Shown here: positions 4,713 through 36,592 of the stretch, piece by piece
How the letters are laid out: each line of letters begins with the position of its first letter
Numbering within the stretch: the stretch's first letter is position 1
DNA from: Methylococcales bacterium
Lineage (GTDB): Bacteria; Pseudomonadota; Gammaproteobacteria; Methylococcales; Methylomonadaceae
Length of the DNA: 36,592 nucleotides
Direction of reading: 5' to 3'
NCBI GenBank assembly: GCA_003584895.1
Contig: QVQF01000091.1
Span: forward strand, 1-36,592
Translations under genes and position numbers: made by a program
The notes under the pieces: model-generated
The model's input: the letters and a program-made list of their open reading frames with translations, nothing else
What the model was told of the DNA's origin: nothing
Databases searched by the model: none

Positions 4713-4713
4713 T

Positions 4714-5979: not shown

Positions 5980-6036
5980 TTAGTAATGTTATTACCCAAT
6001 GTAAATCACATAAAGCCTTTTTTATAACGTAAATAA

Positions 6037-7200: not shown

Positions 7201-7281
7201 AATAAGCCATTACTAATGTTTAAAATAAAGCTCTATGATATTACCGATAATCCCTTGCCTTTTGAAGCTTAAGGCAACAGC

Positions 7282-8464: not shown

Positions 8465-9231
8465 GTCACCGTTTTAAAGTCGTTATTCCTGCTCGATATG
8501 GTTCAAGTCGCTTACCTGGTAAACCCTTATTAGATATAGCTGGCAAACCTATGATTGTTCATGTTTGTGAACGTGCTCAAGAAGCCGATGCTGAAGAAGT
8601 GGTCGTAGCAACGGATGATCAACGCATCTTTCAGGCCGTCACCGATTTAGGTATAAAAGCGGTGATGACACGAGTCGATCATCAAAGTGGTACAGAAAGA
8701 ATTGCTGAAGTGGCAAGGCTTTGTGGTTGGTCGGCGGATGACATTATTGTTAATCTGCAAGGTGATGAGCCCTTAATTCCTCCCGAAGCGATAAGAGAGG
8801 TTGCGCTAGCTTTGGCCAGTCAAAAGCTAGCCGGCATTGCTACTTTGGCGGCTAATATGCTGGATTCAGAAGAAATATTTAATCCCAATGCGGTTAAAGT
8901 GGTTTTGAATCAAGCTGGTTATGCACTTTACTTTAGTCGTGCGCCTATCCCGTGGGAAAGAGGTGTTTTTGATCAGATAAATAGAACACCGTCAGGTGCT
9001 GTGCCTTATCTTCGGCATATTGGTTTATATGCTTATAGGGTTGATTTTTTAAATCGCTATTGTTCCTGGCCAGCCTCAGCGCTGGAGTCTGTCGAAGCTT
9101 TAGAACAATTGAGAATACTTTGGCAGGGTGAGGCAATTTTAGTCAAAGTCATTGCTAAAACGCCTGAAGCTGGTGTGGATACTCATGAAGACCTACTAAG
9201 AGTGGCTAGAGTATTGGCATTGGCTCATTGA
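8461..9231 (+). CDS. kdsB: 3-deoxy-manno-octulosonate cytidylyltransferase
   Basis: [52 protein letters not shown]. Confidence 0.97.
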
Positions 9232-9410
9232 TTAAATCAACTGTCGATTTTAATGTCAGTCAATTAATAGTAAAATCGTCGCTATTATTTGACAGAAGCT
9301 GATTACATCAGTAATTTACTCTGTTTTGTTGTGACTTCTCATGACCTAAGTGTTTTTTGAGGAGCTATTTTTTTAATCTTACTCATACTTGGGTTGCTTA
9401 AGAGCTGTTA

Positions 9411-10598
9411 ATGCAAGAATTTCAAAGAATAAATCGTTTACCTCCCTACGTATTTAACATAGTTAATGAGTTGAAAGCCAAAGCTCGTGCGGCTGGAGAG
9501 GATATTATTGATTTTGGCATGGGTAATCCCGATCAACCTACGCCGCAACATATTGTTGATAAATTGATAGAGGCCGTTCAGCGTCCTGATACCCATCGAT
9601 ATTCAGTTTCTAAGGGTATTCCTAGATTAAGAAAAGCAATCTGTGACTGGTATAAAACCCGTTATGATGTGGACTTAGATCCTGAAACAGAAGCCATTGT
9701 TACCATAGGCTCTAAAGAAGGGCTTGCGCATTTAGCCTTAGCAACATTGGGCCCTGGTGATGTGGTATTGGTACCTAATCCTGCTTATCCTATACATCCT
9801 TATGGTGTCGTTATTGCCGGAGCTGATCTTCGCCATGTGCCTATGACACCGGGTGGTGACTTTTTTGAAGAGTTGCAAAAAGCGATCGTTGATTCTTGGC
9901 CTAAGCCTAAGATGCTTATCCTTAATTTCCCAGGAAATCCGACTACCGAATGTGTGGAGCTCGATTTCTTTGAGAAAATTATTGCTGTCGCTAAAGAGCA
10001 TAATATCTGGGTAGTTCAGGATATTGCTTATGCTGATATCGTTTTTGATGGCTATAAAGCGCCTTCTATACTTCAAGTCGAAGGTGCTAAAGATATTGCA
10101 GTCGAATTTTTCTCCATGTCTAAAAGCTATAACATGCCTGGCTGGCGTGTCGGTTTTATGTGTGGTAATAAAGAGTTAGTCTCGGCTTTAGCAAGAATTA
10201 AATCTTATCTGGATTATGGCACTTTTGCGCCCATACAAATTGCAGCGATTGCCGCATTAGAAGGTCCCCAAGAATGCGTGACTGAAATTGCCGAGATGTA
10301 TAAAAAAAGACGCGACGTGCTGTGTGAAGGTTTGAATGCTGCAGGCTGGCCGGTTGTAAAACCCAAAGCAACTATGTTTGTTTGGGCAAAAATCCCCGAT
10401 GCTTATTTAGCAATGGGCTCCTTAGAGTTTTCTAAAAAACTGTTATTAGAAGCCCGCGTCGCAGTGGCTCCCGGCGTAGGTTTTGGTCAGTACGGCGATG
10501 ATCATGTGCGTTTTGGCTTAATTGAAAATGAGCATCGTACCCGCCAAGCTGTTCGTGGCATTCGTCTGATGATGAAAAAAGATGGCTTAGCTACTTAG
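9411..10598 (+). CDS. alaC: Class I/II aminotransferase, alanine transaminase AlaC-like
   Basis: [37 protein letters not shown] (PLP lysine motif); upstream of hom-thrC. Confidence 0.9.
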
Positions 10599-10607
10599 AA
10601 AAGTTAC

Positions 10608-10642
10608 GTAGGTCGGGTTACGCTATCGCTAACCCGACCTAC
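10608..10642. repeat. Dispersed hairpin element (family B, copy 1)
   Basis: GTAGGTCGGGTTA-CGCTATCGC-TAACCCGACCTAC, a perfect 13-bp inverted repeat in the alaC-hom gap. Confidence 0.85.
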
Positions 10643-10680
10643 AAAATATAAAGATGAATAATGTTTAACTGGAGCTTGAA

Positions 10681-11991
10681 TTGAAACCGGTAAAAGTTGG
10701 TGTATTAGGATTGGGTACAGTAGGCGGTGGTACCGTTAATGTACTAAAGCGCAATGCGGCAGAAATCGCTAGGCGTGCAGGTAGGGAAATCACTATTACC
10801 CGTGCTTCAGTTAAAGACTTAGATAAGCTGCGTATCTGTGATACCCAAGGTATTATTTTAACTACCGACCCTATGGATATCATTAACGATCCCGACATTG
10901 ATATTGTTGTGGAGTTAATCGGTGGAGCCGGTCTAGTTAAAGAATTGGTTTTAAAAGCTATCAGTAATGGTAAACATGTCGTCACAGCGAATAAGTCGCT
11001 GATTGCTTTACACGGTAATGAAATCTTTGCCAAAGCTAGTGAAAAAGGCGTTATTGTCGCTTTCGAAGCAGCGGTTGCCGGTGGTATCCCTATTATTAAA
11101 GCTATACGTGAAGGCTTAAGTGGTAATCAAATTGAATGGTTAGCCGGTATTATTAACGGTACCGGCAATTTCATTTTGACCGAAATGCGCGATAAAGGCC
11201 GGGACTTTAATGATGTCTTAGCTGAGGCTCAAGCCTTGGGTTATGCAGAAGCAGATCCTACTTTTGATGTTGAAGGTATCGATGCCGGTCATAAATTGAC
11301 TATCTTAGCGTCGATTGCTTTCGGTATTCCTTTACAGTTTGACAAGGTTTACACCGAAGGTATTACCGGAATTACTCGTCTTGATGTTGAGTATGCTGAA
11401 CAACTAGGTTATCGCATTAAACATTTAGGCATCGCCAGAAAAATGCCAAATGGTATTGAACTTAGAGTACATCCTACCTTAATCCCAGAGCGTCGTTTAA
11501 TTGCTAATGTGAATGGCGTGATGAATGCTGTTGTCGTAAAAGGCGATGCGGTAGGTCCTAGCCTTTATTATGGAGCCGGTGCCGGTGCAGAGCCCACGGC
11601 ATCTGCGGTAGTCGCTGATTTGATTGATGTCGCTAGAGCACTAACTAGTGACCCTGAAAATCGCGTGCCGCATTTAGCCTTTCAGGCAGATGCCTTAGTT
11701 GATATTCCCGTTTTACCGGCGGCTCAATTTAGAACAGCTTATTATTTACGCTTAAATGCAGAAGATAAGCCGGGCGCCCTAGCCGATGTCACACGCATTT
11801 TGGCCGACCATCACATTAGTATTGAAGCGATTATACAAAGAGAGCCAGCAGGTGATGCCACAGCTATCCCTATTATTTTGCTGACTGAAATAACTCTGGA
11901 ACATGAAATGAATGCTGCGATTACAAAAATCGAAGCCCTAAAAACTGTGACCGGAAAAGTCAATCGTATCCGTTTAGAAACCTTGAGATAA
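10681..11991 (+). CDS. hom: Homoserine dehydrogenase with C-terminal ACT domain
   Basis: VKVGVLGLGTVGGGTVNVL, VVTANKSLIA, GIINGTGNFIL, ACT segment YYLRLNAEDKPGALADVTRILADHHISIEAI. The track start is TTG at 10681. Confidence 0.96.
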   Translation: MKPVKVGVLGLGTVGGGTVNVLKRNAAEIARRAGREITITRASVKDLDKLRICDTQGIILTTDPMDIINDPDIDIVVELIGGAGLVKELVLKAISNGKHVVTANKSLIALHGNEIFAKASEKGVIVAFEAAVAGGIPIIKAIREGLSGNQIEWLAGIINGTGNFILTEMRDKGRDFNDVLAEAQALGYAEADPTFDVEGIDAGHKLTILASIAFGIPLQFDKVYTEGITGITRLDVEYAEQLGYRIKHLGIARKMPNGIELRVHPTLIPERRLIANVNGVMNAVVVKGDAVGPSLYYGAGAGAEPTASAVVADLIDVARALTSDPENRVPHLAFQADALVDIPVLPAAQFRTAYYLRLNAEDKPGALADVTRILADHHISIEAIIQREPAGDATAIPIILLTEITLEHEMNAAITKIEALKTVTGKVNRIRLETLR

Positions 11992-11997
11992 ATAGTT

Positions 11998-13077
11998 ATG
12001 TCTACCCATAAACACCATACTGGATTAATTGAACGTTATAGAGACCGTCTGCCGGTTAGTGCAAATACGCGCATCATCAGTTTAAACGAAGGCAATACGC
12101 CGCTGATCGAGTTGCAAAATATTCCTAGATTACTGGGTAAAGACGTAAAGATTTATGCCAAGTTTGAAGGCTTAAATCCAACCGGTTCTTTTAAAGATCG
12201 CGGTATGACCATGGCGGTTACTAAAGCGGTAGAAGAGGGTAGTCAAGCTATCATCTGTGCCTCTACCGGTAACACTTCTGCGGCTGCTGCGGCTTATGCA
12301 GCTCGAGCCGGTATTAAAGCCTTTGTGTTAATTCCTGATGGCAAAATAGCCCAAGGTAAATTAGCGCAAACTCTAATGTACGATGCGACTATCATTCAGA
12401 TTAATGGTAACTTTGATCAAGGTATGGCATTGGTTAAAGAAGTGGCAGAACAAGCGCCTGTGACTATCGTTAACTCCATTAATCCTTATCGTATTGATGG
12501 TCAAAAAACCGCAGCCTTTGAAATTGTTGATGATTTAGGTTTTGCGCCAGATTATCACTGTTTGCCAGTCGGTAATGCCGGCAATATCACCGCTTATTGG
12601 AAAGGCTATAAAGAATATGCGACCGATAGAGTGTGTGGTAATCGCCCTGTTATGTGTGGATATCAAGCAGCAGGAGCAGCCCCCTTTGTAGCCGGTCTCA
12701 TGATTGATAACCCAGAAACGATAGCCACCGCTATACGTATTGGTCATCCGCAGTCTTGGGACTTCGCTTGGGCTGCACAACAAGAGTCTGGCGGTTGGTT
12801 TGATAAGTTTAGCGATGAACAAATTTTAGTAGCTCAAAGAATGCTCTCACAACATGAAGGTATATTTTGCGAGCCTGCATCGGCGACCTCATTAGCCGGT
12901 GCTATGCAAGACATTGCTTCTGGTAAAATCCCTGAAGGTAGTATCATTGTCTGTACTTTAACGGGCAATGGCTTAAAAGATCCAGATACCGCTATAAAAC
13001 AATGTGCTTCCGCTCATCCTGTGACCATAGAGGCCAGTTTGGATGCCGTTAAACGAGCCATCTTGGATAATTTATAA
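11998..13077 (+). CDS. thrC: Threonine synthase
   Basis: GNTPLIEL, KFEGLNPTGSFKDRGMTMAV (PLP lysine), ICASTGNTSAAAAAYAARAGI. Confidence 0.97.
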   Translation: MSTHKHHTGLIERYRDRLPVSANTRIISLNEGNTPLIELQNIPRLLGKDVKIYAKFEGLNPTGSFKDRGMTMAVTKAVEEGSQAIICASTGNTSAAAAAYAARAGIKAFVLIPDGKIAQGKLAQTLMYDATIIQINGNFDQGMALVKEVAEQAPVTIVNSINPYRIDGQKTAAFEIVDDLGFAPDYHCLPVGNAGNITAYWKGYKEYATDRVCGNRPVMCGYQAAGAAPFVAGLMIDNPETIATAIRIGHPQSWDFAWAAQQESGGWFDKFSDEQILVAQRMLSQHEGIFCEPASATSLAGAMQDIASGKIPEGSIIVCTLTGNGLKDPDTAIKQCASAHPVTIEASLDAVKRAILDNL

Positions 13078-13086
13078 TTTAGTTGC

Positions 13087-13150
13087 CTGGAGTAAAACAG
13101 CTTTAGCTGTTTTAAAGTGCTATAGCTGAAGCTATTGCACTCCTGACTTA
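13087..13150 (+). repeat. Double-hairpin dispersed element (family C, copy 1)
   Basis: CTGGAGTAAAACAGCTTTAGCTGTTTTAAAGTGCTATAGCTGAAGCTATTGCACTCCTGACTTA. Two adjacent palindromes; nearly identical to the reverse complement of 18468-18529. Confidence 0.85.
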
Positions 13151-13184
13151 CTGTTTTCGCTTAACTGTGGGCAAGTTTATGTAG

Positions 13185-13249
13185 GTTGGGTTAGCGTAAC
13201 GTAACCCAACATTACAGGAATTGTCGGGTTACGCTTTTGCTAACCCGAC
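13185..13249. repeat. Tandem pair of family B hairpins (copies 2 and 3)
   Basis: GTTGGGTTA-GCGTAACG-TAACCCAAC (13185-13210) followed by GTCGGGTTA-CGCTTTTGC-TAACCCGAC (13223-13249). Confidence 0.82.
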
Positions 13250-13306
13250 CTTGTGTTTCTGGAATAATGATCGATCTAAAGATAACGATACAGAGCTTAC
13301 CATCTC

Positions 13307-15097
13307 GTGCAATCAAAAACGGCTAAACCATCCTACACTTGGGGCACGATTTATCGTATAGCCTTAGAGCATAAAAAAGCGCTGATTTATTCTCATTTCA
13401 TCGCTGTTTTAGCGATGATGGCCAGTGTACCGGTGCCGTTGTTGATGCCGATGTTAGTGGATGAAGTCTTGCTTAAAAAGCCAGGCGTGGCGATGAGTCT
13501 CATCAATCCGTGGTTTCCTCCAGAATGGCACCAACCAGTCCTTTATATTGCGGTTATATTGATAGTCAGTTTATTGCTGCGCATCATAGCCATCATCTTT
13601 AATATCATCCAAGCACGTCATTTCTCCTGTATTGCTAAAGATATAGTGTTTCGTATACGCCAAAATCTTATTGGCCATTTACAAACCATCTCTATGTCCG
13701 AATATGAAAGCTTAGGCACGGGCACAGTAGTCACGCATTTAGTTAAAGACCTAGATACCATTGATACATTTATCGGCTCCACAGTTAGTAAGTTACTGGT
13801 GGCCAGTTTAACGATTTTAGGCACGGCGGTGATACTCTTATGGATGCACTGGCAGTTAGGCTTATTTATCATGCTGTTAAATCCAGCGGTCATTTACTTT
13901 ACTCGCGTAGTGGGTTCACGCGTTAAGGATCTTAAGGCTAAAGAAAATTCAGCTTACCAAGTGTTTCAACAAGCACTAACCGAAACCTTAGAAGCCATCC
14001 ATCAAATTCGTGCCAGTAATCGCGAGCAACATTATTGTGCGCAATTAATTAGTACCGCACGATCGGTTAAAGACTATTCGGCGGCTTATGCTTGGAAAAG
14101 TGACGCGGCCTCTCGCATTAGTTTTTTAGTATTTTTGTTCGGTTTTGATATATTCCGCGCTTGCGCGATGTTGATGGTGTTTTATTCTGATCTGAGTATC
14201 GGCCAAATGCTCGCCGTGTTCGGTTATCTGTGGTTTATGATGGCGCCAGTACAAGAAATATTAAGTATACAATATGCGTTTTATGCCGCAAAAGCCGCCT
14301 TAGTCCGTATTAATTGTTTGTATGCTTTAAAACAAGAGCCCGCTTATCCGCATCTTGAAAATCCTTTTCTGGATAAAAAAACCGTCGCTATCCGCGTAGA
14401 AAACTTACACTTTAGTTATGGCGAAGAAACCATCCTTAACGGTATTAACCTAAGCATTAAAGCTGGAGAAAAGGTCGCCTTAGTAGGCGCTAGTGGCGGT
14501 GGTAAATCAACCTTAATACAAGCGCTGATTGGACTTTATACGCCTAGTTCGGGGCAAATCTATTTTGATAATGTGCCGATAGAGCATATAGGTTTGGATG
14601 TAGTTAGAGAGCATGTTGTTACCGTACTGCAACATCCAGTGTTATTTAACGATAGCATACGTGCTAATTTGACTTTGGGTAAACAGGTTGCTGATGCCGA
14701 ATTATGGAACGCCTTGGCGATTGCGCAATTAACCGATACCGTAAAAGATCTAGCTCAGGGTTTAGATACCATTGTTGGTAGACAAGGGATGCGGTTATCC
14801 GGTGGTCAACGTCAACGTATGGCCATTGCTCGTATGGTGGTGGCTGATCCTAAAGTGGTGATCTTAGATGAGGCGACCTCAGCACTGGATAGCGAAACCG
14901 AACATCATTTACATGTGGCTTTGGCTGAGTTCTTAAAAGGCCGTACCACGCTGATTATTGCTCACCGCTTAAGTGCTGTTAAACAAGCTGATCATGTTTA
15001 TGTGTTTGAACAAGGTCTGGTAATAGAGCAGGGTAATCATGAAACTTTACTAAACCAAAACGGTCTTTATGCGAAGTTATATGATGAATATCAATAG
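13307..15097 (+). CDS. ABC transporter, fused permease and ATPase (MsbA-like exporter)
   Basis: N-terminal TM domain; Walker A GASGGGKST, signature LSGGQRQRMAIAR, Walker B VVILDEATSALD. GTG start in the track. Confidence 0.92.
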   Translation: MQSKTAKPSYTWGTIYRIALEHKKALIYSHFIAVLAMMASVPVPLLMPMLVDEVLLKKPGVAMSLINPWFPPEWHQPVLYIAVILIVSLLLRIIAIIFNIIQARHFSCIAKDIVFRIRQNLIGHLQTISMSEYESLGTGTVVTHLVKDLDTIDTFIGSTVSKLLVASLTILGTAVILLWMHWQLGLFIMLLNPAVIYFTRVVGSRVKDLKAKENSAYQVFQQALTETLEAIHQIRASNREQHYCAQLISTARSVKDYSAAYAWKSDAASRISFLVFLFGFDIFRACAMLMVFYSDLSIGQMLAVFGYLWFMMAPVQEILSIQYAFYAAKAALVRINCLYALKQEPAYPHLENPFLDKKTVAIRVENLHFSYGEETILNGINLSIKAGEKVALVGASGGGKSTLIQALIGLYTPSSGQIYFDNVPIEHIGLDVVREHVVTVLQHPVLFNDSIRANLTLGKQVADAELWNALAIAQLTDTVKDLAQGLDTIVGRQGMRLSGGQRQRMAIARMVVADPKVVILDEATSALDSETEHHLHVALAEFLKGRTTLIIAHRLSAVKQADHVYVFEQGLVIEQGNHETLLNQNGLYAKLYDEYQ

Positions 15098-15148
15098 AGA
15101 AATCTTCATCAAGGCTAGGTTTTATAATATCAATCACAGAGGCACACC

Positions 15149-15505
15149 ATGTTGATCAACAAATCATTAATAATACTTATATTAAGCTTACTCGTTAGCC
15201 CAATGGCAAAAGCCGTTGGCGAAGAACAATCTTTATCGGCGATTAAATCATTAGTAACACCTCAGCAGCTTGAGTTACTGATACAAAAGTTTCAACCTAC
15301 CATGAAGCCAGAGCAACGCACTCAACTTTCTGGCTTAGTTCAACAGCAGCTTAATAATTTAAGTCCTAAGGAATTGATGGAATTTGGCAATGCCAAAATG
15401 ATAGAGATGCCTGAGCTAGTGAAAAAGCATATTAGTAAAATGCCAGCTAGTGAATTAAAGCAAATTCAACAAACCTTAAAATTACAAAAAAGTCCGCAAC
15501 CATAA
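15149..15505 (+). CDS. Hypothetical small exported protein
   Basis: N-terminal signal peptide (MLINKSLIILILSLLVSPMAKA) followed by about 95 polar helical residues; good start context downstream of the ABC gene. Confidence 0.65.
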   Translation: MLINKSLIILILSLLVSPMAKAVGEEQSLSAIKSLVTPQQLELLIQKFQPTMKPEQRTQLSGLVQQQLNNLSPKELMEFGNAKMIEMPELVKKHISKMPASELKQIQQTLKLQKSPQP

Positions 15506-15578
15506 AGCCGTTGTTATTAACCAAATCGTCATTCCAGTGGAAAGTCTTACGTAAATCCCTACCGGAACTGAAGCGGGA

Positions 15579-15595
15579 CGGGGTTACAAACCCCG
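15579..15595. repeat. GC-rich hairpin between convergent genes
   Basis: CGGGGTT-ACA-AACCCCG perfect 7-bp stem in the convergent gap; no T-run. Confidence 0.55.
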
Positions 15596-15671
15596 ACCGG
15601 CATCGGCCGATTAACCACTAGCAAGCATCTTCTCTACTAGGGCTTAGATTTTTAAATGCCCATTAATATTA

Positions 15672-18356
15672 TCAAGCTAGTCTTAAATCTTTTACCACTC
15701 TGACGATGTCTTGATTTTGGGCAATGGCTTCTATGCTGAAACCTAGCTTACTAACTAGCGATAGCATGGGTTGGTTGATGGCCAGTACTTCACCTTCAAA
15801 AAATAACATGCCTTTGGTTTTGGCTGATTGCATTAAGCTGGTCATCAGGCGTGTGCCTATGCCTAGATTATGACAATCATCAGCTACCACTAGTGCAAAT
15901 TCGACGGATTGACCGTCGGGATTGGTTAGGTAACGTCCTACGGCGAGTTCAGTGATTTTGTGTTCATCTTCGGTAATGGCAATAAAAGCCATTTCTCGGT
16001 CATAATCAATTTGTGTAAAGCGCACGATCATTTCTGGGGTTAGTTCATGCAAGGCTTGCATAAAACGAAAGTATTTAGTGCGATCTGACAAACGACTGTG
16101 AAAGTTGGTTTCTAAGTCGGCATCTTCGGGACGTATGGGACGTATGCAGATATTAATGCCATTGCTTAATTGATGATGTGAGATCAGTTCATGAGGGTAG
16201 GGATGTATCGCCATGTGGGCATAATGACTGAGTTGGTTGCATAACTGCGCTTTAATACGAGCATCTACGGCAATGGCACCGTGCTCATCAACGATTAAAG
16301 GATTAATGTCCAACTCTAAGATTTCTGGTAATTCGCTGACCATGGTTGAGACATTCAGCAGTACTTCAATTAGAGCTTTTGTGTTGGCGGGGGGTAATTG
16401 TCGAAATGCCTTTAAGTATTTGGCCGCTTTGGTTTTGGCAATGAGTTGCTCAACCATATAGCTGTTAAGTGGGGGTAGGGCAACGGCATTATCTTGTAGG
16501 ATTTCTACCAAAGTCCCACCTAAACCAAAACTAATCGCCGGACCAAACAAGGGATCTCTTACTACGCCTATCATCAGTTCTCTGCCACTAGCGCTTTTAA
16601 ACATGGGTTCAACGGTCATACCTACCGTTGTGATCTCAGGATGTGTGAGTTTAATGGCTGCTTCCATCTCAGTGTAGTGTTTAGAAATTTCTTGAACGCT
16701 GTTTATGTTGAGCCTAACGCCGCCTATATCAGATTTATGGCTGAACTCAGCCATATTCACTTTTAAAACGACCGGGAAACGTAAGGTTTCTGAGGCAATC
16801 ATAGCGTCTTTTGCGCTAGCAACACTGATGGTTTGAGTGACGGGGATATTAAAGGCGGCCAAAATGGCTTTAGATTCTTGTGCGGTTAATACTTGGCGAC
16901 CTTCTGAAAGGACGCGTTCAATAATTAAGCGTGCGCCTGCAACATCGGGCTGGGCGAGTTCATCCGTTACTGTTGGGATTTGTTTAAGCAGGATTTGATT
17001 TTCTGCATAATTGGCTAAAAAAGCAAAGGCATCGACTGCTGTTTCAGGGGTATTAAAGTGCGCGACTTTGCTGTTTGCAAATAAATCACGCCCCGCCTGT
17101 ACTTTAGCTCCTCCGGTCCAAGACGCTAGCACTGGTTTATGGCTAGTCTTGGCGCCATCAATAATATATTCAGCGACTAAGGTGGGTTCGGTCATGGCTT
17201 GGGGCGTTAATATGACTAAGATGCCATCAATATTGTCGTCGTTAATGCAGACCTCTAAGGCTTGCCGATATCGATCAGCCGTGGCATCCCCTAAAATGTC
17301 GATAGGATTGGCGTGAGACCAATGCGGCGGTAATACAGCATTTAAACTTTCTAAACTGGTAGGATTTAATTGAGCCATTTGTATGCCTACATCTTCGGCG
17401 CGATCGGTACTCATCACACCAGGACCGCCGGCATTGGTAATAATAGCTAGGTGATCTTTTTTGACCACATAATTATTCGCTAGCACTCTGGCGGCAGAAA
17501 ATAACTCGGTAATGCTATAGGCTCTAACTACACCGGCTCTAGCAATGGCTGCATCGAAGACCTTGTCGCCGCCCACCATCGCGCCGGTATGAGACATGGC
17601 GGCTTTGCAGCCAGCTTCGTGGCGACCAGACTTTATCAGGATCACCGGTTTTAAACGTGCAGCGGCTTTAAGGCCACTTAAAAAGCGTCGGGCATCGCGT
17701 ATGCCTTCGACATACATTAAGATGCCGGTGGTTTTACTGTCGGTGGCTAGATAATCTAAGACTTCACCAAAATCAATATCAGCTGCACCACCCATAGAAA
17801 CCACGGTGGAAAAGCCTATGTCCTGAACTTTTGCCCAATCTAATATAGCTGTACAGACAGCGCCTGATTGCGATAACAAGGCAAGACTTCCATCTTTAAC
17901 AATACCATCACCAAAGGTAGCATTCAATTGGCCACTAGGACCTATGACGCCTAGGCAATTAGGGCCAATAATACGAATGCTGTAGCGATGGGCAATGCCT
18001 AGTATCTCTTGTTGTAAACGCTGGCCTTCTGCGCCTAGCTCTCCAAAACCAGCGCTGATGATAATGACTGAACTAACACCTTTGTCACCACATTGTCGCA
18101 ATATGCAGGGCACTGTCGGTGCGGGTGTGGCGATGACCACTAGATCTAAGTCTTCTGGAACAGCATGTAAATCAGGGTAAGCTTTGAGTCCTAATAATTG
18201 CTCATGTTTAGGATTGATAGGATAAAGTCCGCCGCTAAAGCCTGCTTCTTGCATGTTAAGCAGTAGTCTATAGCCCACACTATTTTCGCGTTCTGATGCG
18301 CCAACGATAGCAACAGAGTTAGGAGTAAAGAAATGTTGTAAATAATGAGGTCCCAT
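15672..18356 (-). CDS. PatZ/Pat-like protein: NDP-forming acyl-CoA synthetase domains fused to a C-terminal GNAT acetyltransferase
   Basis: CoA-binding N-terminus (FFTPNSVAIVGASERENSVGYRLLLNM), ATP-grasp segment (RFPVVLKVNMAEFSHKSDIGGVRLN), C-terminal GNAT (MAFIAITEDEHKITELAVGRYLTNPDGQSVEFALVVADDCHNLGIGTRLM). Confidence 0.9.
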   Translation of the reverse strand: MGPHYLQHFFTPNSVAIVGASERENSVGYRLLLNMQEAGFSGGLYPINPKHEQLLGLKAYPDLHAVPEDLDLVVIATPAPTVPCILRQCGDKGVSSVIIISAGFGELGAEGQRLQQEILGIAHRYSIRIIGPNCLGVIGPSGQLNATFGDGIVKDGSLALLSQSGAVCTAILDWAKVQDIGFSTVVSMGGAADIDFGEVLDYLATDSKTTGILMYVEGIRDARRFLSGLKAAARLKPVILIKSGRHEAGCKAAMSHTGAMVGGDKVFDAAIARAGVVRAYSITELFSAARVLANNYVVKKDHLAIITNAGGPGVMSTDRAEDVGIQMAQLNPTSLESLNAVLPPHWSHANPIDILGDATADRYRQALEVCINDDNIDGILVILTPQAMTEPTLVAEYIIDGAKTSHKPVLASWTGGAKVQAGRDLFANSKVAHFNTPETAVDAFAFLANYAENQILLKQIPTVTDELAQPDVAGARLIIERVLSEGRQVLTAQESKAILAAFNIPVTQTISVASAKDAMIASETLRFPVVLKVNMAEFSHKSDIGGVRLNINSVQEISKHYTEMEAAIKLTHPEITTVGMTVEPMFKSASGRELMIGVVRDPLFGPAISFGLGGTLVEILQDNAVALPPLNSYMVEQLIAKTKAAKYLKAFRQLPPANTKALIEVLLNVSTMVSELPEILELDINPLIVDEHGAIAVDARIKAQLCNQLSHYAHMAIHPYPHELISHHQLSNGINICIRPIRPEDADLETNFHSRLSDRTKYFRFMQALHELTPEMIVRFTQIDYDREMAFIAITEDEHKITELAVGRYLTNPDGQSVEFALVVADDCHNLGIGTRLMTSLMQSAKTKGMLFFEGEVLAINQPMLSLVSKLGFSIEAIAQNQDIVRVVKDLRLA

Positions 18357-27612: not shown

Positions 27613-28215
27613 TTAGGTATCTTGAGCTTCAAGTGCCGCTAATTCATCTGAACTATTAATATTTATAAAGATAGTGGGCTCATGGCTAAAGTCGACATAG
27701 ACGCTATTTAGCGGCTTTAGCCAATCTCCAACCTTACGCTGACCACTAGCCAAAAAGTCCTGTAGGTTCTGGGTTAATGAAGCTTTAAGCGCTAAAAATA
27801 GTGGGTGTAGTTGTACACCATCAAAAGCGATAGCAATATCGGCATCGTGTTCTGTCCTAGCAGTCAATAGCTGTTGTAAGTGTTCTGCCTTAAAATAGGG
27901 AGTGTCACAGGGCATAACAAGCAATACCTCGGTATCTGTATGGATCAACGTCGTTAAGATACCCGCTAAAGGGCCATCAAAACTATGGGTTTGATCTGTA
28001 ATAACAGGCAGGCCAAAGGCTTCATAAGCTACGAGGTTACGATTGGCATTAATGAAGGTTAGGTCGGAAACAGCTTTCAAGGCCTCAAGGGCATAACTGA
28101 TCAACGCTCTATTTTTAAATTGAATTAGACCTTTATCTTGATTAGCCATACGCCTAGCACGCCCCCCCGCTAATACTACACCGGCTATTTTAGAGTTCTT
28201 TATTTGAGTAGACAT
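27613..28215 (-). CDS. mobA: Molybdenum cofactor guanylyltransferase
   Basis: IAGVVLAGGRARRMANQDKGLIQFKNRALISYALEAL, DGPLAGILT, VMPCDTPYF. Confidence 0.93.
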   Translation of the reverse strand: MSTQIKNSKIAGVVLAGGRARRMANQDKGLIQFKNRALISYALEALKAVSDLTFINANRNLVAYEAFGLPVITDQTHSFDGPLAGILTTLIHTDTEVLLVMPCDTPYFKAEHLQQLLTARTEHDADIAIAFDGVQLHPLFLALKASLTQNLQDFLASGQRKVGDWLKPLNSVYVDFSHEPTIFININSSDELAALEAQDT

Positions 28216-28318: not shown

Positions 28319-30478
28319 TTACCAGCCGCTTTCTCTGATCATAACGGCAAGTGCAGAACGAACTAAACGTCCAGATATACTTTCAGCAGGTGTAGTTAGT
28401 TTCAATCGACCTCGAACGGCATACGGAAGTGTATCGCTGGTATTTTTAATGTCTAATTGTAGACGATAAACACCTTGCTCAGGAATCAAGTGATGTTGCT
28501 CATCTTCTCTGACGGCAATAGCGCCACCATAGCGCGAACTGAGTTCAGCTAAACTTAATTGGCGTGTGCCAGAAGGATCAATACTGAGTACGTTAACTAA
28601 AATAGGCGCTAAATCAGCACCATCAGGATAAAAAACACCACTTGCTCCTAGTTGTAAGCGTTGTAAATCAGCTTCTTCAGTATAAGCGATGACTACGTTA
28701 CTGGGACTAATCACTACACCTAAGGGTTCGTCTTTTGCTAGCCATTCACCTGAGCGCAAAGAGTCAGATAAATCTCGTATTTGGCCATTAAAGCTGGCAC
28801 GTATGGTCAGTTTATCATATGCAGCGTGCAGACCTTGTAGTTCGGCTAAGGTTGACTGTAAGGCTTCCATATCCATAGGGTTATGTCTAGCTAAGGTCAA
28901 GTCAAGGCTCTGTGATGCGAGTTGTTGCGTTAACTCAGCCCAACGTAGTTCAGCGGTATGTATACGAAAATCAAGGTCTGGCGAGGTTAATTCCAACAGT
29001 ACTTGTCCTTCTGTAACTGCATCACCCTCATGAATTAATACGTGTTTAACCTTTGAGGGTTGAGGACTATATAAGATAAATTCAGCTGTCCCTTTAAGTA
29101 AGCCTGGAATCAGTATATGTGTTTGCCAAGGTACAACGAGTATGGCGATAGCTATAATAGGTATAGACCAAGCTAGATGAGGTCTAGGACTAGCGTCTTG
29201 CTTCGTAAATAACTCACGCCAAATAACGATTTCTTTAAAAATAGGCCTAGCGACAAACCAGATAATTTCTACGGCAAATAAGCCTAAACCCAGTGCTTTA
29301 AAGAAAAAATGATAAACCGCCCAAGCGATGCCGGTAAATAATAATAAGCGGTAAACCCAAGTCGCGTAAGCATAGGCAATGAGTAAACGTTGTCGATTTT
29401 TATGCCATAATTCAGGTGGTGATAAGTTAAAGCGAAATAGACATTCGCGTAAATGCCAACGCGCTAAAGCAAAGGAACGGTCTTGTAGATTAGCAATGTC
29501 GAGTAGATCAGTGAGTAAATAATAGCCATCAAAACGCATAAAAGGGTTTAGATTGATGGCTAAGGTGACTAACCAGGTTGAGCTAGCCAAAACATAAACC
29601 CCACTGCGCAAAGAGCCATCGGGTAATAAAGCCCATAACAAGGTTGCTAAGGCTGCCAATATCAATTCGGCAAACATGCCTGCAGCATCAATGATTAAAC
29701 GATCTTGGCGACGAGGCAAACGCCAAGCATCGGTAACATCGGTCCATAGTACCGGGAAACCCATCATAAGAGCGATACCCATGCTAGGCACACGACAGCC
29801 AAAATGGCTGGCAGCTAAAGCATGACCTAACTCGTGTATTAGCTTAGCTAATGACAGCATGACCGCTGTCGTTAGCATGCCTTCTGGTGTAACTACATAA
29901 AGAAAACTATGGCTAAAACTTGTCCATTGCTGCGTGATTAGATAAGCCGCTAATACAGACACTAATAGTAATATTAGCAAGCTGCGGCGATTAAAAAATA
30001 GGTTAACGATGGGCAGAGCTCTTTTTAAAAAAGGCCCAGGCTTTAATAAGGGTACGCGCATAAACAAATAGTTATGCAATAGCCATAGCCAAAACCCAGT
30101 ATGTGAGTTCTTTTTAAGCTGAGCTAAAAACTGACTCGCTTCGGCACCTTTAGGTTTAGATAAGTGATGATTGAGGAGGAATTTAGCAAAAGCTTCAATT
30201 TCCGAGATTGAGGTACTTATAGGTGTAGAGTGTTCGATGGCTGCGACAATTTGTTCTGCGTTAGCTAATGACCAATATTGTAAACATTCGAACTCTAACC
30301 AACCTAATCGATAATAGCGATGTGCAGCTTGATCATATAAAGTCCAAGTAGGTGAACCATCAAGTGCTCTAGGTCCTGGATAAATAGCTAAGTCTTCACG
30401 TAGTTGTGGCCAGCTTGCTAAGCTTTCTACCATGGTAACCAGAGTCTTGCCGTACGTAATGGCTTGCGTAGCAACCAT
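28319..30478 (-). CDS. M50 (site-2-type) peptidase / HlyD periplasmic adaptor fusion with a PqqD/RRE-like N-terminus
   Basis: HELGH metalloprotease motif (LAKLIHELGHALAASHFG), NLNPFMRFDGYYLLTD S2P motif, several TM helices, C-terminal biotinyl-lipoyl/HlyD region (VKHVLIHEGDAVTEGQVLLELTSPDLDFRI). Alternative ATG at 30433 reduces the overlap with the upstream gene to 7 bp. Confidence 0.85.
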   Translation of the reverse strand: MVATQAITYGKTLVTMVESLASWPQLREDLAIYPGPRALDGSPTWTLYDQAAHRYYRLGWLEFECLQYWSLANAEQIVAAIEHSTPISTSISEIEAFAKFLLNHHLSKPKGAEASQFLAQLKKNSHTGFWLWLLHNYLFMRVPLLKPGPFLKRALPIVNLFFNRRSLLILLLVSVLAAYLITQQWTSFSHSFLYVVTPEGMLTTAVMLSLAKLIHELGHALAASHFGCRVPSMGIALMMGFPVLWTDVTDAWRLPRRQDRLIIDAAGMFAELILAALATLLWALLPDGSLRSGVYVLASSTWLVTLAINLNPFMRFDGYYLLTDLLDIANLQDRSFALARWHLRECLFRFNLSPPELWHKNRQRLLIAYAYATWVYRLLLFTGIAWAVYHFFFKALGLGLFAVEIIWFVARPIFKEIVIWRELFTKQDASPRPHLAWSIPIIAIAILVVPWQTHILIPGLLKGTAEFILYSPQPSKVKHVLIHEGDAVTEGQVLLELTSPDLDFRIHTAELRWAELTQQLASQSLDLTLARHNPMDMEALQSTLAELQGLHAAYDKLTIRASFNGQIRDLSDSLRSGEWLAKDEPLGVVISPSNVVIAYTEEADLQRLQLGASGVFYPDGADLAPILVNVLSIDPSGTRQLSLAELSSRYGGAIAVREDEQHHLIPEQGVYRLQLDIKNTSDTLPYAVRGRLKLTTPAESISGRLVRSALAVMIRESGW

Positions 30479-31761
30479 AACAAAAAGGGTCTACGTGTAC
30501 CGTATAATTTAGCAATACCGTGATAACCTAAACGCGGTAACTCTGAGCCCTCAGTAAATTCTGCTTTAAGTCGATAAGCCATAACATCCGCTGGAGTAGG
30601 ACTAGTACGATAACTAAAATAAGTCAATTTAGCTTGTAAAGGTTGATGGGGAGATACATTAGAGAAAAACTGCACCAAATCGCCTGCCTGCAGTTCGATT
30701 AAATCATCCATGGGTAAGCGTATTTCCAAATCAATCGTTTGAGGATTGGCGATTGCTAGAATTTTTTCACCCTGAGTAACAGGACGTCCCAGCCAATCAT
30801 TGGGATCATCAAATACGGCGACACCTGATTGATTGGCCACGACCTCGCAACGCTCGAGTAGGGTGTGTACATAATCGGCTTCTGAGTTTTGTTGATCCCA
30901 TTTGCTTTTTAAACCGGCTAATTTAGCTTTTACAGTAGGATCCAGTAAGGCTTGCTGGGTCATTTGTAAATATTCAGTTTGGGCAATATCACGCGTTTCT
31001 TCAGCGACATTAAGACGGCTTTGTAATTGCGCCTTATCTAAAGAAAATAATTTTTGGCCGGCACTGACGCTTTCATTAGGTAATACATAAAAGTTTTCTA
31101 CTACACCTTCAAGCGGCGCTCTAACCAGATTGGGTTGATGAGGAACTACTTCCGCTTCAGCCAACACAGATTGATGTATAGGAAAAAAAGTTGCGGCCAG
31201 TAGCAGACCTCCGACTATAAACCCCCGTCGGTGTCCTTTTACATGCGTTTGCCAAGAGACTTTAGTTTGATTAGCTTCCGACAACGCTAAGGTATAGCCA
31301 TAGGCTTCACCTAAATAAGCCAGTAAATGCAGCTCTGCTTCATGCCAAGAAGTCTCTCTAAATAATACCAAGACATAAGTGCCGCCTGAGGGAGCAGGTA
31401 AGGGGAGCCATAAGGCATATTCAGGTGCCCAACTGGGCCAATCATGAGCCAGTTCCTCAGCTAAGTCTTTAGCACTAAATTCTGCAATATTATCGGCACG
31501 AATATCGTTACTAAAGTGTTTTAACACAGGCAGCAGCCAAAGTGCGTAAGGACTGTTTTTTTCTAGACTGACAACGCCTGAAGCGGCGTTAATAGTATTG
31601 CTAGCTTTATTCCACAGTATTGCCTGTCGATAAGGCAGTAACTCGCTAGTTTCATTGACTATGACATAAGGCAATTCTGCAGCAGGCGCTAACCTAGCGC
31701 GTGATTCTAACTGCAGTAAAAGTGTCAGCCTTATTAAGCGAGGATCAGGAAGTTCTGTCAT
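30427..31761 (-). CDS. HlyD-family periplasmic adaptor with an N-terminal cytoplasmic GAF-like region
   Basis: First ~170 aa are soluble (GAF-like), then a TM (GFIVGGLLLAATFFPI), then a lipoyl/HlyD region (VRAPLEGVVENFYVLPNESVSAGQKLFSLDKAQLQSRL). ATGA start overlaps the previous gene's stop. Confidence 0.8.
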   Translation of the reverse strand: MTELPDPRLIRLTLLLQLESRARLAPAAELPYVIVNETSELLPYRQAILWNKASNTINAASGVVSLEKNSPYALWLLPVLKHFSNDIRADNIAEFSAKDLAEELAHDWPSWAPEYALWLPLPAPSGGTYVLVLFRETSWHEAELHLLAYLGEAYGYTLALSEANQTKVSWQTHVKGHRRGFIVGGLLLAATFFPIHQSVLAEAEVVPHQPNLVRAPLEGVVENFYVLPNESVSAGQKLFSLDKAQLQSRLNVAEETRDIAQTEYLQMTQQALLDPTVKAKLAGLKSKWDQQNSEADYVHTLLERCEVVANQSGVAVFDDPNDWLGRPVTQGEKILAIANPQTIDLEIRLPMDDLIELQAGDLVQFFSNVSPHQPLQAKLTYFSYRTSPTPADVMAYRLKAEFTEGSELPRLGYHGIAKLYGTRRPFLLWLLRKPLRTARLWLPW

Positions 31762-32504
31762 GGGTTGCTGATAAATTCTATTGCACCGCTCATGCCCGGT
31801 AACAACTCATCCGCTTTATCAATAATGTGACCATACACTTTAATGGTTTGACTAACAGGATCGACCTTGCCGCCCACTTTAGTGATTTCAGCAGTATACG
31901 ATTTAGCGACTTCATCTAAGGTGACTTTAAAATGCTTACCCACCGTTAGGTTGGGCATGGAACGAGAAGGTGCCATAAACTCAATTTCTAAGTCTTTATC
32001 ATCTAAAATTTCTAGCAATGGATCGCCAGGACGGACTGATTGATAAAGACGAGCATTGACTTCAGAGACTCTGCCAGAAAAAGGAGCATGTATCACACAT
32101 CGATCCAGCATAGCTTGAGTGATACGAACATCGGCTTTAGCTTCTTCTGCCTCGGCTTTAGATACAGCGAGTTCTAAGGCACCAATTGAACGGCGAGTTT
32201 CTAGTTGTTGATTAACTTCATAGACTTTAAGTTTTTTGCCAAGAGTCGCTTGGCTTTTGCTTAATTGGGCTTCCTCAAGAGTACAATGAAAGCCCACTAG
32301 CACTTGTCCGGCACTAAAACGTTCCCCATCATGCAGTTTAAGCTGGCTGATTCTAGCGCTAATTTCACTAGAAATCAGAGTGCTTTGCCTAGATTTAAGT
32401 TGTGCGCGTAAATGCAGGTCTGAACTCATAAATTGAGCCTCGGCCAGTACCGGCAGTTGCCAAAATACCAAGCTCAAAGTTAGTAATAAGCAGCGAAAAC
32501 TCAT
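31758..32504 (-). CDS. Short HlyD/RND-type periplasmic adaptor, secreted
   Basis: Signal peptide; ISARISQLKLHDGERFSAGQVLVGFHCTLEEAQL, IHAPFSGRVSEVNARLYQSVRPGDPLLEI, LPGMSGAIEF. Confidence 0.88.
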   Translation of the reverse strand: MSFRCLLLTLSLVFWQLPVLAEAQFMSSDLHLRAQLKSRQSTLISSEISARISQLKLHDGERFSAGQVLVGFHCTLEEAQLSKSQATLGKKLKVYEVNQQLETRRSIGALELAVSKAEAEEAKADVRITQAMLDRCVIHAPFSGRVSEVNARLYQSVRPGDPLLEILDDKDLEIEFMAPSRSMPNLTVGKHFKVTLDEVAKSYTAEITKVGGKVDPVSQTIKVYGHIIDKADELLPGMSGAIEFISNP

Positions 32505-34036
32505 TCTGTGATGGCTTCCTGTGTTGGGGGTGTAGATATTTCTGGAAGTTTGGGTAAATCACCGGCATACCAGCGGTTTAAAGTCTTTTCTAGTTGAACT
32601 GACAGTGTTCGTACAGTGACATGTTCAATAATGCCGCTAGCAGGGTCAAGGCCAATAGACGCATAAATATTGCCTAAAGCAGTATAAACATCGGCTAGAC
32701 TTTGCTCTTTTTCTAGTTGAGAGGCTAAAGCTGAGGTTGCCGCGTGAATACGATCTAGCTCAGAGCCCGCGTCAACTTCGGTATTATTGCTAATGGCTTT
32801 AAACAGGCTTTGGTCTATATTGCTTAATTCACTGGCACTTTGATAACCGTCTAAGGCTTTAAGATATTGCTGATAACCAATGTTAATTTGCACTACAGCA
32901 GCAATGCTTAAAGCTTTGCGTCGAGTTTTGGCCACTTCAATTTGAGTTTGGGCTGTTTTCCATGTTTTAGGTGCTGAGACCAAATTAACTAAATTAAAAG
33001 TTGTGCGTGCACTCGCTTCCAGCCACGTTGTGTGTACCAAAAAGGAATTGCTATCCCAGTTAGCTGAAAGAGGAATGGTTAAACCTGGCATAGCTTTTAA
33101 CAGTTCTTTCCAGACTTCGTTACGACTGATACGTTCCTGATAAAGTTCTTCACGCAATTCTGGTCTAAAGAACAAGCCCATGCTTTCTAATTCAGCTGGC
33201 GTAGATTTTAATACTGGTGCTTCTGGGGTTTGTTCAGGATGCGCCAAGGTAAAGTTAGAGTTCATAGGGACATTAATTAAACCGGCTAATTTAGGCTTAG
33301 CAGAGTTTAAATCGGCTCTTAGTTTTTTTAATTGAGCAATGACACGTAACAAACTACGTTGATATTCTAGGACGCCCACCACTGGTTGCAAGCGGTCTTC
33401 GCCGATAGCTTTGCTTAATTTAAGCGCTTCTTCTGCTTGGGCCAGTACCGGTATCAGTTGTGGCAATAAGCGTTCAGCAATATTAGTACTCCAATAAGCC
33501 GACAGCACTTCTTTAACCAAATTATTGATTACTTTACGGCGACGTTCTTGCGCGATTAAGATTCTGTCCGCTTGTTGTTTGGCTTGAAAATAACTGGTAC
33601 CAAAGTCGAGTAAATTCCAAGTAAAGGCCAAGTCAGCAACACCTCGGTTAGTATCTTGAGATGTTGACGGCACCAAAGATTGGACACGTGTAGTCACATT
33701 AGTGCTAGATGATGCCAGCTCACTTTGTCGTCCCATATAGCCCGCATCAACCGCCAATCGTGGCAACATGTTGAGTGTAGCCACTTCAAGTTGAGAATCT
33801 TGTAATACTTTTTCCATCATAGTTAAACGATGATCAAAGTTATATTTAAGAGCCCGTGCTAAGGCATCATAAAAAGTCAAAGGCTGAGTGATAGGTTCCT
33901 GGTGACTATAAATTTCTGTTTGGTCACTCAACATAGTGTTTAAGCGCGATTGGGCATCTATGGGTTGTGGCGTAATGGAGCAACTGCTTAAGGTGCTTGC
34001 TATCAAGGCAAGACTAACGGTTTTGTAAAAAGACAT
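32501..34036 (-). CDS. TolC-family outer-membrane channel, lipoprotein-type
   Basis: Lipobox-like LSSC after a hydrophobic segment (MSFYKTVSLALIASTLSSC); long coiled OEP repeats (FYDALARALKYNFDHRL..., AFTWNLLDFGTSYFQAKQQADRILIAQERRRKVINNLVKEVLSAYW). Confidence 0.88.
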   Translation of the reverse strand: MSFYKTVSLALIASTLSSCSITPQPIDAQSRLNTMLSDQTEIYSHQEPITQPLTFYDALARALKYNFDHRLTMMEKVLQDSQLEVATLNMLPRLAVDAGYMGRQSELASSSTNVTTRVQSLVPSTSQDTNRGVADLAFTWNLLDFGTSYFQAKQQADRILIAQERRRKVINNLVKEVLSAYWSTNIAERLLPQLIPVLAQAEEALKLSKAIGEDRLQPVVGVLEYQRSLLRVIAQLKKLRADLNSAKPKLAGLINVPMNSNFTLAHPEQTPEAPVLKSTPAELESMGLFFRPELREELYQERISRNEVWKELLKAMPGLTIPLSANWDSNSFLVHTTWLEASARTTFNLVNLVSAPKTWKTAQTQIEVAKTRRKALSIAAVVQINIGYQQYLKALDGYQSASELSNIDQSLFKAISNNTEVDAGSELDRIHAATSALASQLEKEQSLADVYTALGNIYASIGLDPASGIIEHVTVRTLSVQLEKTLNRWYAGDLPKLPEISTPPTQEAITE

Positions 34037-34062: not shown

Positions 34063-36592
34063 TTACAGGTTTTTTAAGCTATCTAGCAGGGCACGACTTT
34101 CTTGCAGTCGACTTAGTTTTCCTGCCATGTGTACTTGTTGGGTAAAGCTTTGTTTGCTATGCAGTGCTTCAAAATGATTAACCAAGCGAGTATTGCTTAT
34201 AGGTTTTTGAATGCTGGCATTGGGACTCGGTGTATTAGGTAATACAGGGATATCTCCTTGCTGATTATCTAATTGGGGTTTTGTTTGGGTATTATCCTCT
34301 TTACTAATGCCAACTTTAAAAGTAGCACTCACTTCTTTGCCATAACTATCTTTAGCCGTCACTGTTACCGTTTCTGGCGTAACACCTTTAGGCGGGACAC
34401 CAGAGAACTTTAAGGTTTTTGGATCAAAGTTTAACCAAGCGGGCAAAGCTTTACCTGAGCTGGTTGTAGCTTCAAAAACCAATTGTTCATTAGGATTACT
34501 ATGCACAAATATTGAAGCGGGGATTTGAAAGGAATAATTTTGGTTCTCCGTGACCAACTGGTTACGAACAGATCCTACTAGCGATAGTTCGAAATTTAAG
34601 GCGTTATCTTGTGATTTAGCTTGTTGTGATGGAGAGGAAAAATCATTGCTGCTAGTAGTAGCTTCATTTTTAGCACCAGAAACAGGGTTCATTACAGTTA
34701 CAGTGCTAGGAGTACTGGGAGGCGAGTATGTAAACGGCGAAGGAGTCGGGTTAGCTAACTGAATACTTGAACCTGGTGAGCTAAAAGTACCGTTGATAGT
34801 AATAGTTAATACTGTGGTGCTATGGTTGCCATCGCTATCAGTGATAGTGTAAGTAAAAGTTTCGGTTAGTGTTTGTCCAAAAGGTAGTGCCGATACCGCA
34901 GCATTGCTGTTATTTAGTGTGTAAGTATAGTTTCCATCAGCGTTGAGGATCAGGTTGCCGTAAGTTGAGGCAAAAGCAGAGCCTACTGTGTAAGGAACGC
35001 CGTTAAAGCTGACAGCAGATACGGGCGTTGCTGTCGTGTCAGCACCAATACGATCGTTAGTGACTACATTGCCGGAGACGATTACGGCAGTGTTGCTTTC
35101 AGTAACACTGGCTGTATCAGGGTTAGCGGTAGGCACATCATTAATGATGTCGACGACTAAACTACCATTGCTGCTAGTATCCGCCGCGTTAGTAATGACT
35201 AAAGCGATAGTATCAGTGCTGTCAGTTCCCCCTGTTTGAATGAGGTTATGAGGTAAGCTGTAACTGTAATTTAAAGTGCCAGTGGTCGTTACACCGCCGA
35301 CACTCGTCGTGGTTGTAAAGCCGGTCAGCGTCAGAATGCCACTGCTAGTCGTTATCGCCACCGGTGTAGTGGTTAAGTGATTCAAGGCTTCGACGTTAAA
35401 AGATTGCCCAGCCACCGAGACGCTCGTTAAGCCATCCAGTGCACTGAGGGTAATAGCGCCTGTGGTTGTTTGGCTATTATCTGAAGGTGTAACCAGTCCC
35501 TTTTCATAAACAGTGATTTGACCCGGTGCACTATCGTTAGCATCTACTGGCGTAATAGTGGGTGCGCCATCAGTATGGCCATTAATGGTGATCGTCAGCG
35601 TAGTGGTTGAGGTGCCGCCTCTGCCGTCATTAATAGTGTAGGTGTAAGTATCCTGTAGGGTTTGACTAGTCAATAGTCCGTTGACCGTAGGGTTATTGTT
35701 ATTCAGCGTATAGGTGTAACTGCCATCGGTGTTCAGCACGATGCTACCGTAGTTACCAGATACTGTGTTACCGACATTGGTATTACTCACCGGACCGCTA
35801 TTGCTTCCAGATACTATACCCTGCACCGCTAATGTATCGCCATCTTGGTCAGTGGCAGGGCTATTGCTAGCGCCGGCGCCTGAAATGACATTTCCGGTAG
35901 CTGTGTTAGGTGTTGCATCTTCGGTAATGCTAGTAGTTTGAGCAGGAGTGACCGGTAGACGGTCGATGTTGACGGTGATAGTGCCAACGGCCGTTAATAG
36001 GCCGCCGCCGCCTTGATCTTGTCCGCTACCTGCTGTGCCGCTACCCGTATTATTGTTGTTCTGGTCATTAATGGTGATAGCTAAAATCACGCTGTTATAA
36101 CTTAAATCACCAGGGGTAGTGACTGCATTGCTATAAGTAATATTCTGTAAGGCTGTATTAACTAAAGACGCAGTGGCATTACTATTAAAGGTAAGCTCTA
36201 AGGTGCCGCCGCTGTTGGTGTAACTGCCTATATTGGTTGAACTGACCAGCAAATTACTGGCAGTTAAGCTAAGACTGCCGCTGGCGCCGAATTGGTCATC
36301 GGCACTTGAAATGCCTTGACGGGTAACAGTTAGCGTCGCGCCGCTCCAATTATTGCGTTCGGTGACCAATTCTTGATCGACCAAGGTCAAGGTGGCGATG
36401 CTTTCTAGCACTACAGCAGTTCCAGACTGTATGTAAAGATTGGTGGAAGTCGCAGGTAGGTCGATAATTGTGGGAGCATCGTTGATAGCAGTAACACTGG
36501 TATTCAGCGTTACTGCATTGCTGCTGTTGCTGTAACGAGTAGTGCCACCTGATAAGCTGGTGTCATTAGATACGTCAACTGAAGTTCCTGTC
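34063..36592 (-). CDS. Very large VCBS/cadherin-like repeat surface protein, C-terminal part (5' end beyond the right edge)
   Basis: VCBS-type repeats (YGSIVLNTDGSYTYTLNNNNPTVNGL...DTYTYTINDGRGGTSTTTLTITING; YGNLILNADGNYTYTLNNSNAAVSAL...), Ig-like/dystroglycan-type domain (NYSFQIPASIF...ALPAWLNFDPKTLKFSGVPP). The same frame is open from the track's GTG at 36411 to 36592. Confidence 0.87.
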   Translation of the reverse strand, partial: TGTSVDVSNDTSLSGGTTRYSNSSNAVTLNTSVTAINDAPTIIDLPATSTNLYIQSGTAVVLESIATLTLVDQELVTERNNWSGATLTVTRQGISSADDQFGASGSLSLTASNLLVSSTNIGSYTNSGGTLELTFNSNATASLVNTALQNITYSNAVTTPGDLSYNSVILAITINDQNNNNTGSGTAGSGQDQGGGGLLTAVGTITVNIDRLPVTPAQTTSITEDATPNTATGNVISGAGASNSPATDQDGDTLAVQGIVSGSNSGPVSNTNVGNTVSGNYGSIVLNTDGSYTYTLNNNNPTVNGLLTSQTLQDTYTYTINDGRGGTSTTTLTITINGHTDGAPTITPVDANDSAPGQITVYEKGLVTPSDNSQTTTGAITLSALDGLTSVSVAGQSFNVEALNHLTTTPVAITTSSGILTLTGFTTTTSVGGVTTTGTLNYSYSLPHNLIQTGGTDSTDTIALVITNAADTSSNGSLVVDIINDVPTANPDTASVTESNTAVIVSGNVVTNDRIGADTTATPVSAVSFNGVPYTVGSAFASTYGNLILNADGNYTYTLNNSNAAVSALPFGQTLTETFTYTITDSDGNHSTTVLTITINGTFSSPGSSIQLANPTPSPFTYSPPSTPSTVTVMNPVSGAKNEATTSSNDFSSPSQQAKSQDNALNFELSLVGSVRNQLVTENQNYSFQIPASIFVHSNPNEQLVFEATTSSGKALPAWLNFDPKTLKFSGVPPKGVTPETVTVTAKDSYGKEVSATFKVGISKEDNTQTKPQLDNQQGDIPVLPNTPSPNASIQKPISNTRLVNHFEALHSKQSFTQQVHMAGKLSRLQESRALLDSLKNL

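Follow-up and report, generated by a model that had tools for sequence, protein, structure and literature searches.

A site-2 protease fused to an RRE-like domain and a HlyD adaptor probably reads, and may cut, the N-terminal tag of giant adhesins

Introduction

When an intramembrane protease and an export adaptor share one polypeptide, what does the protease cut, and does it do so during export? The question is raised by a gene on a 36,592-nucleotide contig of a Methylococcales bacterium, which was analyzed over its whole length and is referred to here as the window. A sequence-only reading of the window had described the gene product as an M50 site-2 protease (S2P) with intact motifs, fused to a HlyD adaptor and coupled to a TolC-type conduit, and had likened it to RiPP maturation and export proteins. 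In one such RiPP system, the M50 protease EpeP is thought to both cleave and export EpeX in coupled steps (PMC10885120). We describe the domains of the fusion, the operon that carries it, and a conserved tag on its genomic partners.

A fusion with invariant catalytic residues

The open reading frame initially annotated for this gene (28319-30478, minus strand, 719 codons) is real and open throughout, and only its start, placed at an upstream ATG at 30478, needs revision. The start codon is probably the ATG at 30433 (M16), which yields a 704-residue protein. This start is likely because the 15 preceding codons are unconserved among relatives, the corresponding stretch of the nearest relative (L004) contains a stop codon, and the ATG sits on the stop of the upstream gene as ATGGTAG. 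Features of the fusion and its neighbors are listed in Table 1.

Table 1. Features of the fusion gene and its operon in the window
Feature	Position	Strand	Evidence or remark
RRE - site-2 protease (M50) - HlyD fusion, likely 704 aa	28319..30433	minus	
RRE/PqqD-like domain (aa 11-95 of the 704-aa form), predicted cytosolic	30149..30403	minus	AlphaFold2, Foldseek
M50/S2P transmembrane core (aa 149-433)	29135..29989	minus	PF02163, hmmsearch, Foldseek
HELGH zinc-binding/catalytic motif	29822..29836	minus	codons 215-219; 77/77 invariant
NLNPFMRFDGYY, second S2P motif; its Asp is the third zinc ligand	29519..29554	minus	codons 309-320
HlyD/MacA-type periplasmic adaptor half (aa 437-704)	28322..29125	minus	HlyD_3, Foldseek
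HlyD-family adaptor (444 aa)	30427..31761	minus	N-terminal region weakly GAF-like in relatives
HlyD/RND-type periplasmic adaptor (248 aa)	31758..32504	minus	TIGR01730 103.8 bits, above cut-off
TolC-family outer-membrane factor (511 aa)	32501..34036	minus	PF02321 70.2 bits
Conserved C-terminal tail of the giant, SFTQQVHMAGKLSRLQESRALLDSLKNL	34066..34149	minus	alignment of operon giants across phyla
Giant adhesin gene, 3' part (last 842 aa)	34063..36591	minus	VCBS/cadherin/Ig repeats, He_PIG

Both S2P motifs attributed to the protein, HELGH and the downstream NLNPFMRFDGYY, can be read directly in the frame, and they match the M50 signature of an HExxH in a transmembrane helix followed by the NPxxxxDG aspartate. 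H215, E216, H219, D317, G318, and Y320 (the second tyrosine of FDGYY) are unchanged in all 77 family sequences compared, a sample that reaches down to about 36-40% identity. This invariance indicates that the motifs are not chance occurrences and that catalysis is under selection. The proposed union of protease and adaptor in one polypeptide is borne out by a Pfam search, in which Peptidase_M50 (PF02163, 29.9 bits, cut-off 27.2) and HlyD_3 (30.9 bits, cut-off 22.2) both score above their cut-offs.

Structural evidence agrees with these assignments. The site-2 protease mjS2P (3b4r) is matched by hmmsearch at an E-value of 4e-4. An AlphaFold2 model of the whole protein, built from a 55-sequence alignment, has a pLDDT of 86, and residues 1-438 modeled separately reach a pLDDT of 85.6 and a pTM of 0.80. 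The top Foldseek matches of this separate model are SpoIVFB (8vjl) and mjS2P, with probability 1.00 and modest E-values of 0.003-0.02. Judged by its motifs, Pfam score, and predicted S2P fold, the fusion is a member of the M50 family and is predicted to be proteolytic. The fold match also bears, indirectly, on the objection named in the sequence-only reading, that the zinc ligands might be unable to co-localize. The C-terminal half shows the lipoyl/barrel-sandwich flanking an alpha-hairpin of HlyD/RND adaptors (HlyD_3, Foldseek), with MacA (3fpp) matched at an E-value of 4.9e-14 and MexA and EmrA also matched.

An RRE-like domain at the N-terminus

A third domain, overlooked in the sequence-only reading, lies ahead of the protease core. 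Residues ~11-95 are predicted to fold like a RiPP recognition element (RRE/PqqD), a module that binds leader peptides, with the order beta-beta-beta-alpha-alpha-alpha in the AlphaFold2 model. After the two site-2 proteases, the next-best Foldseek matches of residues 1-438 are RRE-leader complexes; the RRE structures matched are TbiB1-leader (5v1u/5v1v), the lasso B1 protein 6jx3, and CteB (5wgg), with probabilities of 0.99-1.00 and E-values of only 0.05-0.5. In an M50-HlyD relative from Rhizobium johnstonii, a paralogue, Pfam detects PqqD at the aligned position (28.9 bits, cut-off 23.4). In the window protein itself, the sequence alone gives weak support for PqqD: a profile comparison between the window domain and a methylotroph PqqD gives P 0.007, and a PDB sequence search with the domain profile returned only chance-level matches. 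The RRE assignment thus rests on the fold and the Rhizobium paralogue. Assuming the usual S2P orientation, the RRE-like domain would be cytosolic and the active site would open on that same side of the membrane, with the HlyD half in the periplasm.

The fusion belongs to a recurrent operon

On the minus strand, the genes run in the order giant adhesin, TolC, HlyD, HlyD, and finally the fusion. Neighboring genes of the four-gene run that begins with TolC overlap by 4-7 bases, and a 26-base gap precedes TolC. The contig stops at 36592, so that only the C-terminal 842 residues of the giant fall within the window. The next gene after the operon, mobA (molybdenum cofactor guanylyltransferase, 27613-28215, minus strand, TIGR02665 above cut-off), appears to be unrelated.

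The complete four-gene set is present at 61 of 80 loci, and many of the remaining loci are truncated by contig ends. Where the position upstream of TolC could be tested, a giant or an edge-running ORF lies immediately upstream in 39 of 54 loci; a non-giant gene occupies this place at some loci. The same gene order is found in Alpha-, Beta-, and Gammaproteobacteria, in Nitrospira, where the giant comes after the protease gene, and in Desulfobacterota-type bins. Annotated examples include an Azospirillum plasmid locus encoding a DUF4347 protein, TolC, and three HlyD-type proteins, as well as plasmids of Kosakonia and Escherichia coli. The E. coli G5 plasmid (L187, IncHI1B) carries the entire operon at 692-18070 with a 3,668-residue DUF4347/cadherin giant, and of 5,426 E. 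coli genomes, 24 have the M50-HlyD gene at 99% identity or more, in most cases on a plasmid. Operon conservation, together with catalytic invariance, strongly supports the suggested link between an intact site-2 protease and a TolC-type conduit.

Other candidate associations were discarded. A recurrent "ABC ATPase" neighbor cluster has no fixed position and is a superfamily artefact, and the other recurrent neighbor clusters are antisense ORFs of GC-rich genomes. PADLOC gave no defence match, and a Foldseek search against viral proteins returned nothing.

Giant adhesins carry a tag that co-occurs with the protease

The giants open with a conserved motif, xLE[PQ]Rx(M/L)(F/Y)D(G/A)A, that resembles the LEPR-XLL domain. 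Its distribution was surveyed in 299 Pseudomonadota genomes, 59 with the full-length protease and 240 without. DUF4347 giants are present in 52 of the 59 protease genomes and 17 of the 240 others (Fisher p 2e-35), and a 26-residue tag profile matches 59/59 versus 1/240 (p 3e-62); these p-values overstate independence because the genomes are related and the counts are of genomes rather than independent events, and the profile, having been built from protease-positive genomes, might overlook divergent tags in others. The tag is also found on some frame in each of the seven protease genomes that lack DUF4347.

The association also holds at the level of individual loci. A slightly relaxed motif, xLE[PQAR]Rx(M/L)(F/L/Y)D(G/A)A, stands at the N-terminus of DUF4347 giants in 39 of 40 loci, with LS replacing FD in three tagged DUF4347 loci, whereas it is found in none of 25 DUF4347 loci from 13 protease-less genomes (one of these loci is cut by a contig end). 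Some untagged DUF4347 proteins, such as L158 (genome G100) and L168 (genome G175), have N-termini that look like Sec signal peptides. The contrast extends to a single genus (g104), in which two genomes have both protease and tag and three have DUF4347 with neither. Operons outside the profile training set carry the tag as well: LESRQLFDGA on the E. coli G5 plasmid, LEPRMLFDGA in Kosakonia, LEPRLLYDAA in Cupriavidus, and LEPRFMFDAA in Azospirillum. The longest frame found, a DUF4347 frame of 14,920 residues, lies near 2731072 on contig C1 of genome G016.

DUF4347 is absent from the window genome, where MMLALEPRMVFDGAVAV begins a 2,625-residue cadherin-repeat frame that runs to the end of contig C83. 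The 26-residue profile matched this start, whereas a search of the same genome with a degenerate nucleotide pattern based on the tag gave no match. The frame lies on a different contig from the 3' giant piece of the window and could be part of the same gene or of another; its start resembles that of the operon giant of M. tundripaludum (a 6,234-residue frame). At the other end, a common C-terminal tail with the pattern GLSxQ(V/L)...ALLxSL is found in the giants and is possibly a secretion signal.

Two genomes that have only a distant protease type, G142 and G175, carry LLSAD- or LLFSA-type tags in place of MFDGA on the giant adjoining the protease. These two data points suggest protease and tag subtypes with matched specificities.

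A proposed role in adhesin processing and export

The domain architecture, the invariant catalytic residues, the conserved operon, and the near-perfect tag co-occurrence are the observations from which a function can be proposed. Because the fusion occurs almost only where giants begin with the tag, it probably reads this tag during export, and it may also cut it. The giant's tagged N-terminus is the most likely substrate, given the RRE-like leader-binding domain and the conserved tag on its genomic partners. The same two features give the RiPP analogy, which had been put forward in concept, a physical basis. On balance, we favor the view that the fusion is a dedicated leader-recognizing protease-adaptor that processes giant adhesins, with cleavage as a predicted step, and helps their export.

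In this capacity, the fusion would act within a dedicated giant-adhesin exporter as its inner-membrane subunit, responsible for processing and also serving as an adaptor. The cytosolic RRE-like domain would bind the tag, and the S2P core, with its active site toward the cytosolic side, would cut at or beside it, presumably during export. Together with both HlyD partners and the TolC-like protein, the periplasmic HlyD half would then form a conduit that could carry the giant directly to the surface. A broader possibility, which we hold tentatively, is that these genes constitute an unnamed secretion system widespread in Proteobacteria. In it, the type I ABC exporter would be replaced by an RRE-guided intramembrane protease that reads and cuts an LExR-type leader on giant adhesins and feeds a HlyD-TolC conduit, and RRE subtypes would pair with tag subtypes (MFDGA versus LLSAD).

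The conservation of the giants at both ends also fits the main alternative, itself rather unlikely, namely regulated release of the kind known for LapA and LapG. LapA-type adhesins are held by their N-terminus and freed by proteolysis. By analogy, the giant would be exported C-terminus first, with its tail as the secretion signal, and tethered in the envelope by its RRE-held tag until a signal-triggered S2P cut frees it. The signal could perhaps be sensed by the 444-residue partner adaptor, whose N-terminal region is weakly GAF-like in 4 of 10 relatives, but these matches fall under the Pfam cut-offs. Furthermore, an RRE fold favors a role in recognizing a leader over one in tethering alone, and no LapD/LapG-like regulator was recognized among the recurrent neighbors.

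How the chain crosses the inner membrane bears on a second alternative. Classical type I secretion combines a dedicated ABC exporter with HlyD and TolC, and the operon contains no ABC gene at all. Within a distance of 6 kb, ABC genes are present at just 3 of 80 loci. In the window genome, which is 96.4% complete, no type I ABC exporter scores above cut-off; its full-length ABC exporters are MsbA-, CydC-, CydD-, and MsbA-like, and none of them exceeds the LssB cut-off. One MsbA-like exporter is encoded in the window itself (13307-15097, plus strand; best match TIGR02203, 354 of 602 bits, below every curated cut-off listed) and is unlinked to the operon. The operon has no conserved motor of the ABC, RND, or MFS type, and the chain needs some inner-membrane carrier. 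This would suit an S2P fold whose main part in the exporter is that of an inner-membrane platform or channel and for which proteolysis is a secondary activity. We regard this as improbable, since the invariance of all catalytic residues in the 77 sequences argues for catalysis. Envelope-stress signaling in the manner of RseP, in which the S2P would cut an anti-sigma factor or signal peptide and the adhesin linkage would be only regulatory, shares the S2P fold and a role common among M50 proteases but is highly improbable: the window genome encodes another M50 on contig C13, no sigma/anti-sigma gene was found among the recurrent neighbors, and its fusion to RRE and HlyD parts, like its co-occurrence with the tag, directs attention to the exported protein.

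Comparison with known systems

Leader recognition and processing by the fusion, as favored here, has partial parallels in several known systems. The RiPP proteases EpeP/YydH-LiaK and daptide DapM have an M50 core of the same branch. The fusion scores 150 bits over residues 113-403 against the daptide HExxH model (NF041824, cut-off 300) and 44 bits against the YydH/LiaK model (NF058609, cut-off 225), which places it outside DapM and epipeptide-protease membership. Unlike EpeP and DapM, the M50 domain of the window is fused to an RRE-like domain and HlyD and sits with TolC and giant adhesins rather than with short modified peptides. The lasso-peptide RRE TbiB1 and PqqD share the predicted fold of the N-terminal domain, with PqqD detected by Pfam in the Rhizobium relative. 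Here, however, an intramembrane metalloprotease and an export adaptor belong to the same polypeptide as the domain, and the presumed leader belongs to a protein of thousands of residues.

The type I systems of LapA/LapBCE, BapA, and SiiE likewise place a giant repeat adhesin with a conserved C-terminal tail beside HlyD/TolC-type components. In contrast to them, the window operon lacks an ABC exporter and has three HlyD-type adaptors, a protease-adaptor fusion, and a conserved N-terminal tag. That tag resembles the LEPR-XLL domain (NF012209, cut-off 17), to which no function is attached in the open-access literature searched, where it is mentioned only in passing. The Neptunomonas giant tag LEPRILLSAD reaches 28.2 bits against this model, whereas the dominant type here, LExRx(M/L)(F/Y)D(G/A)A, stays below the cut-off in the two MFDGA/MYDAA-type examples scored (13.7 and 15.0 bits).

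Distribution and significance

Beyond its methane-eating host, the fusion is carried by hundreds of other Proteobacteria, and the survey, in which 59 of 299 sampled genomes were positive, suggests that roughly one in five Pseudomonadota species has the full-length system. Searches of the open-access literature found no paper describing the system, and its genes, present even on some E. coli plasmids, are annotated just generically. The link to the protease offers a testable function for the LEPR-XLL-type tag and a context for DUF4347 giants. It also raises the question of how, with no ABC motor linked to the operon, an adhesin of several thousand residues gets across the inner membrane. If the proposed role is true, RRE-guided leader recognition would apply not only to small peptides but also to surface proteins that are thousands of residues long.
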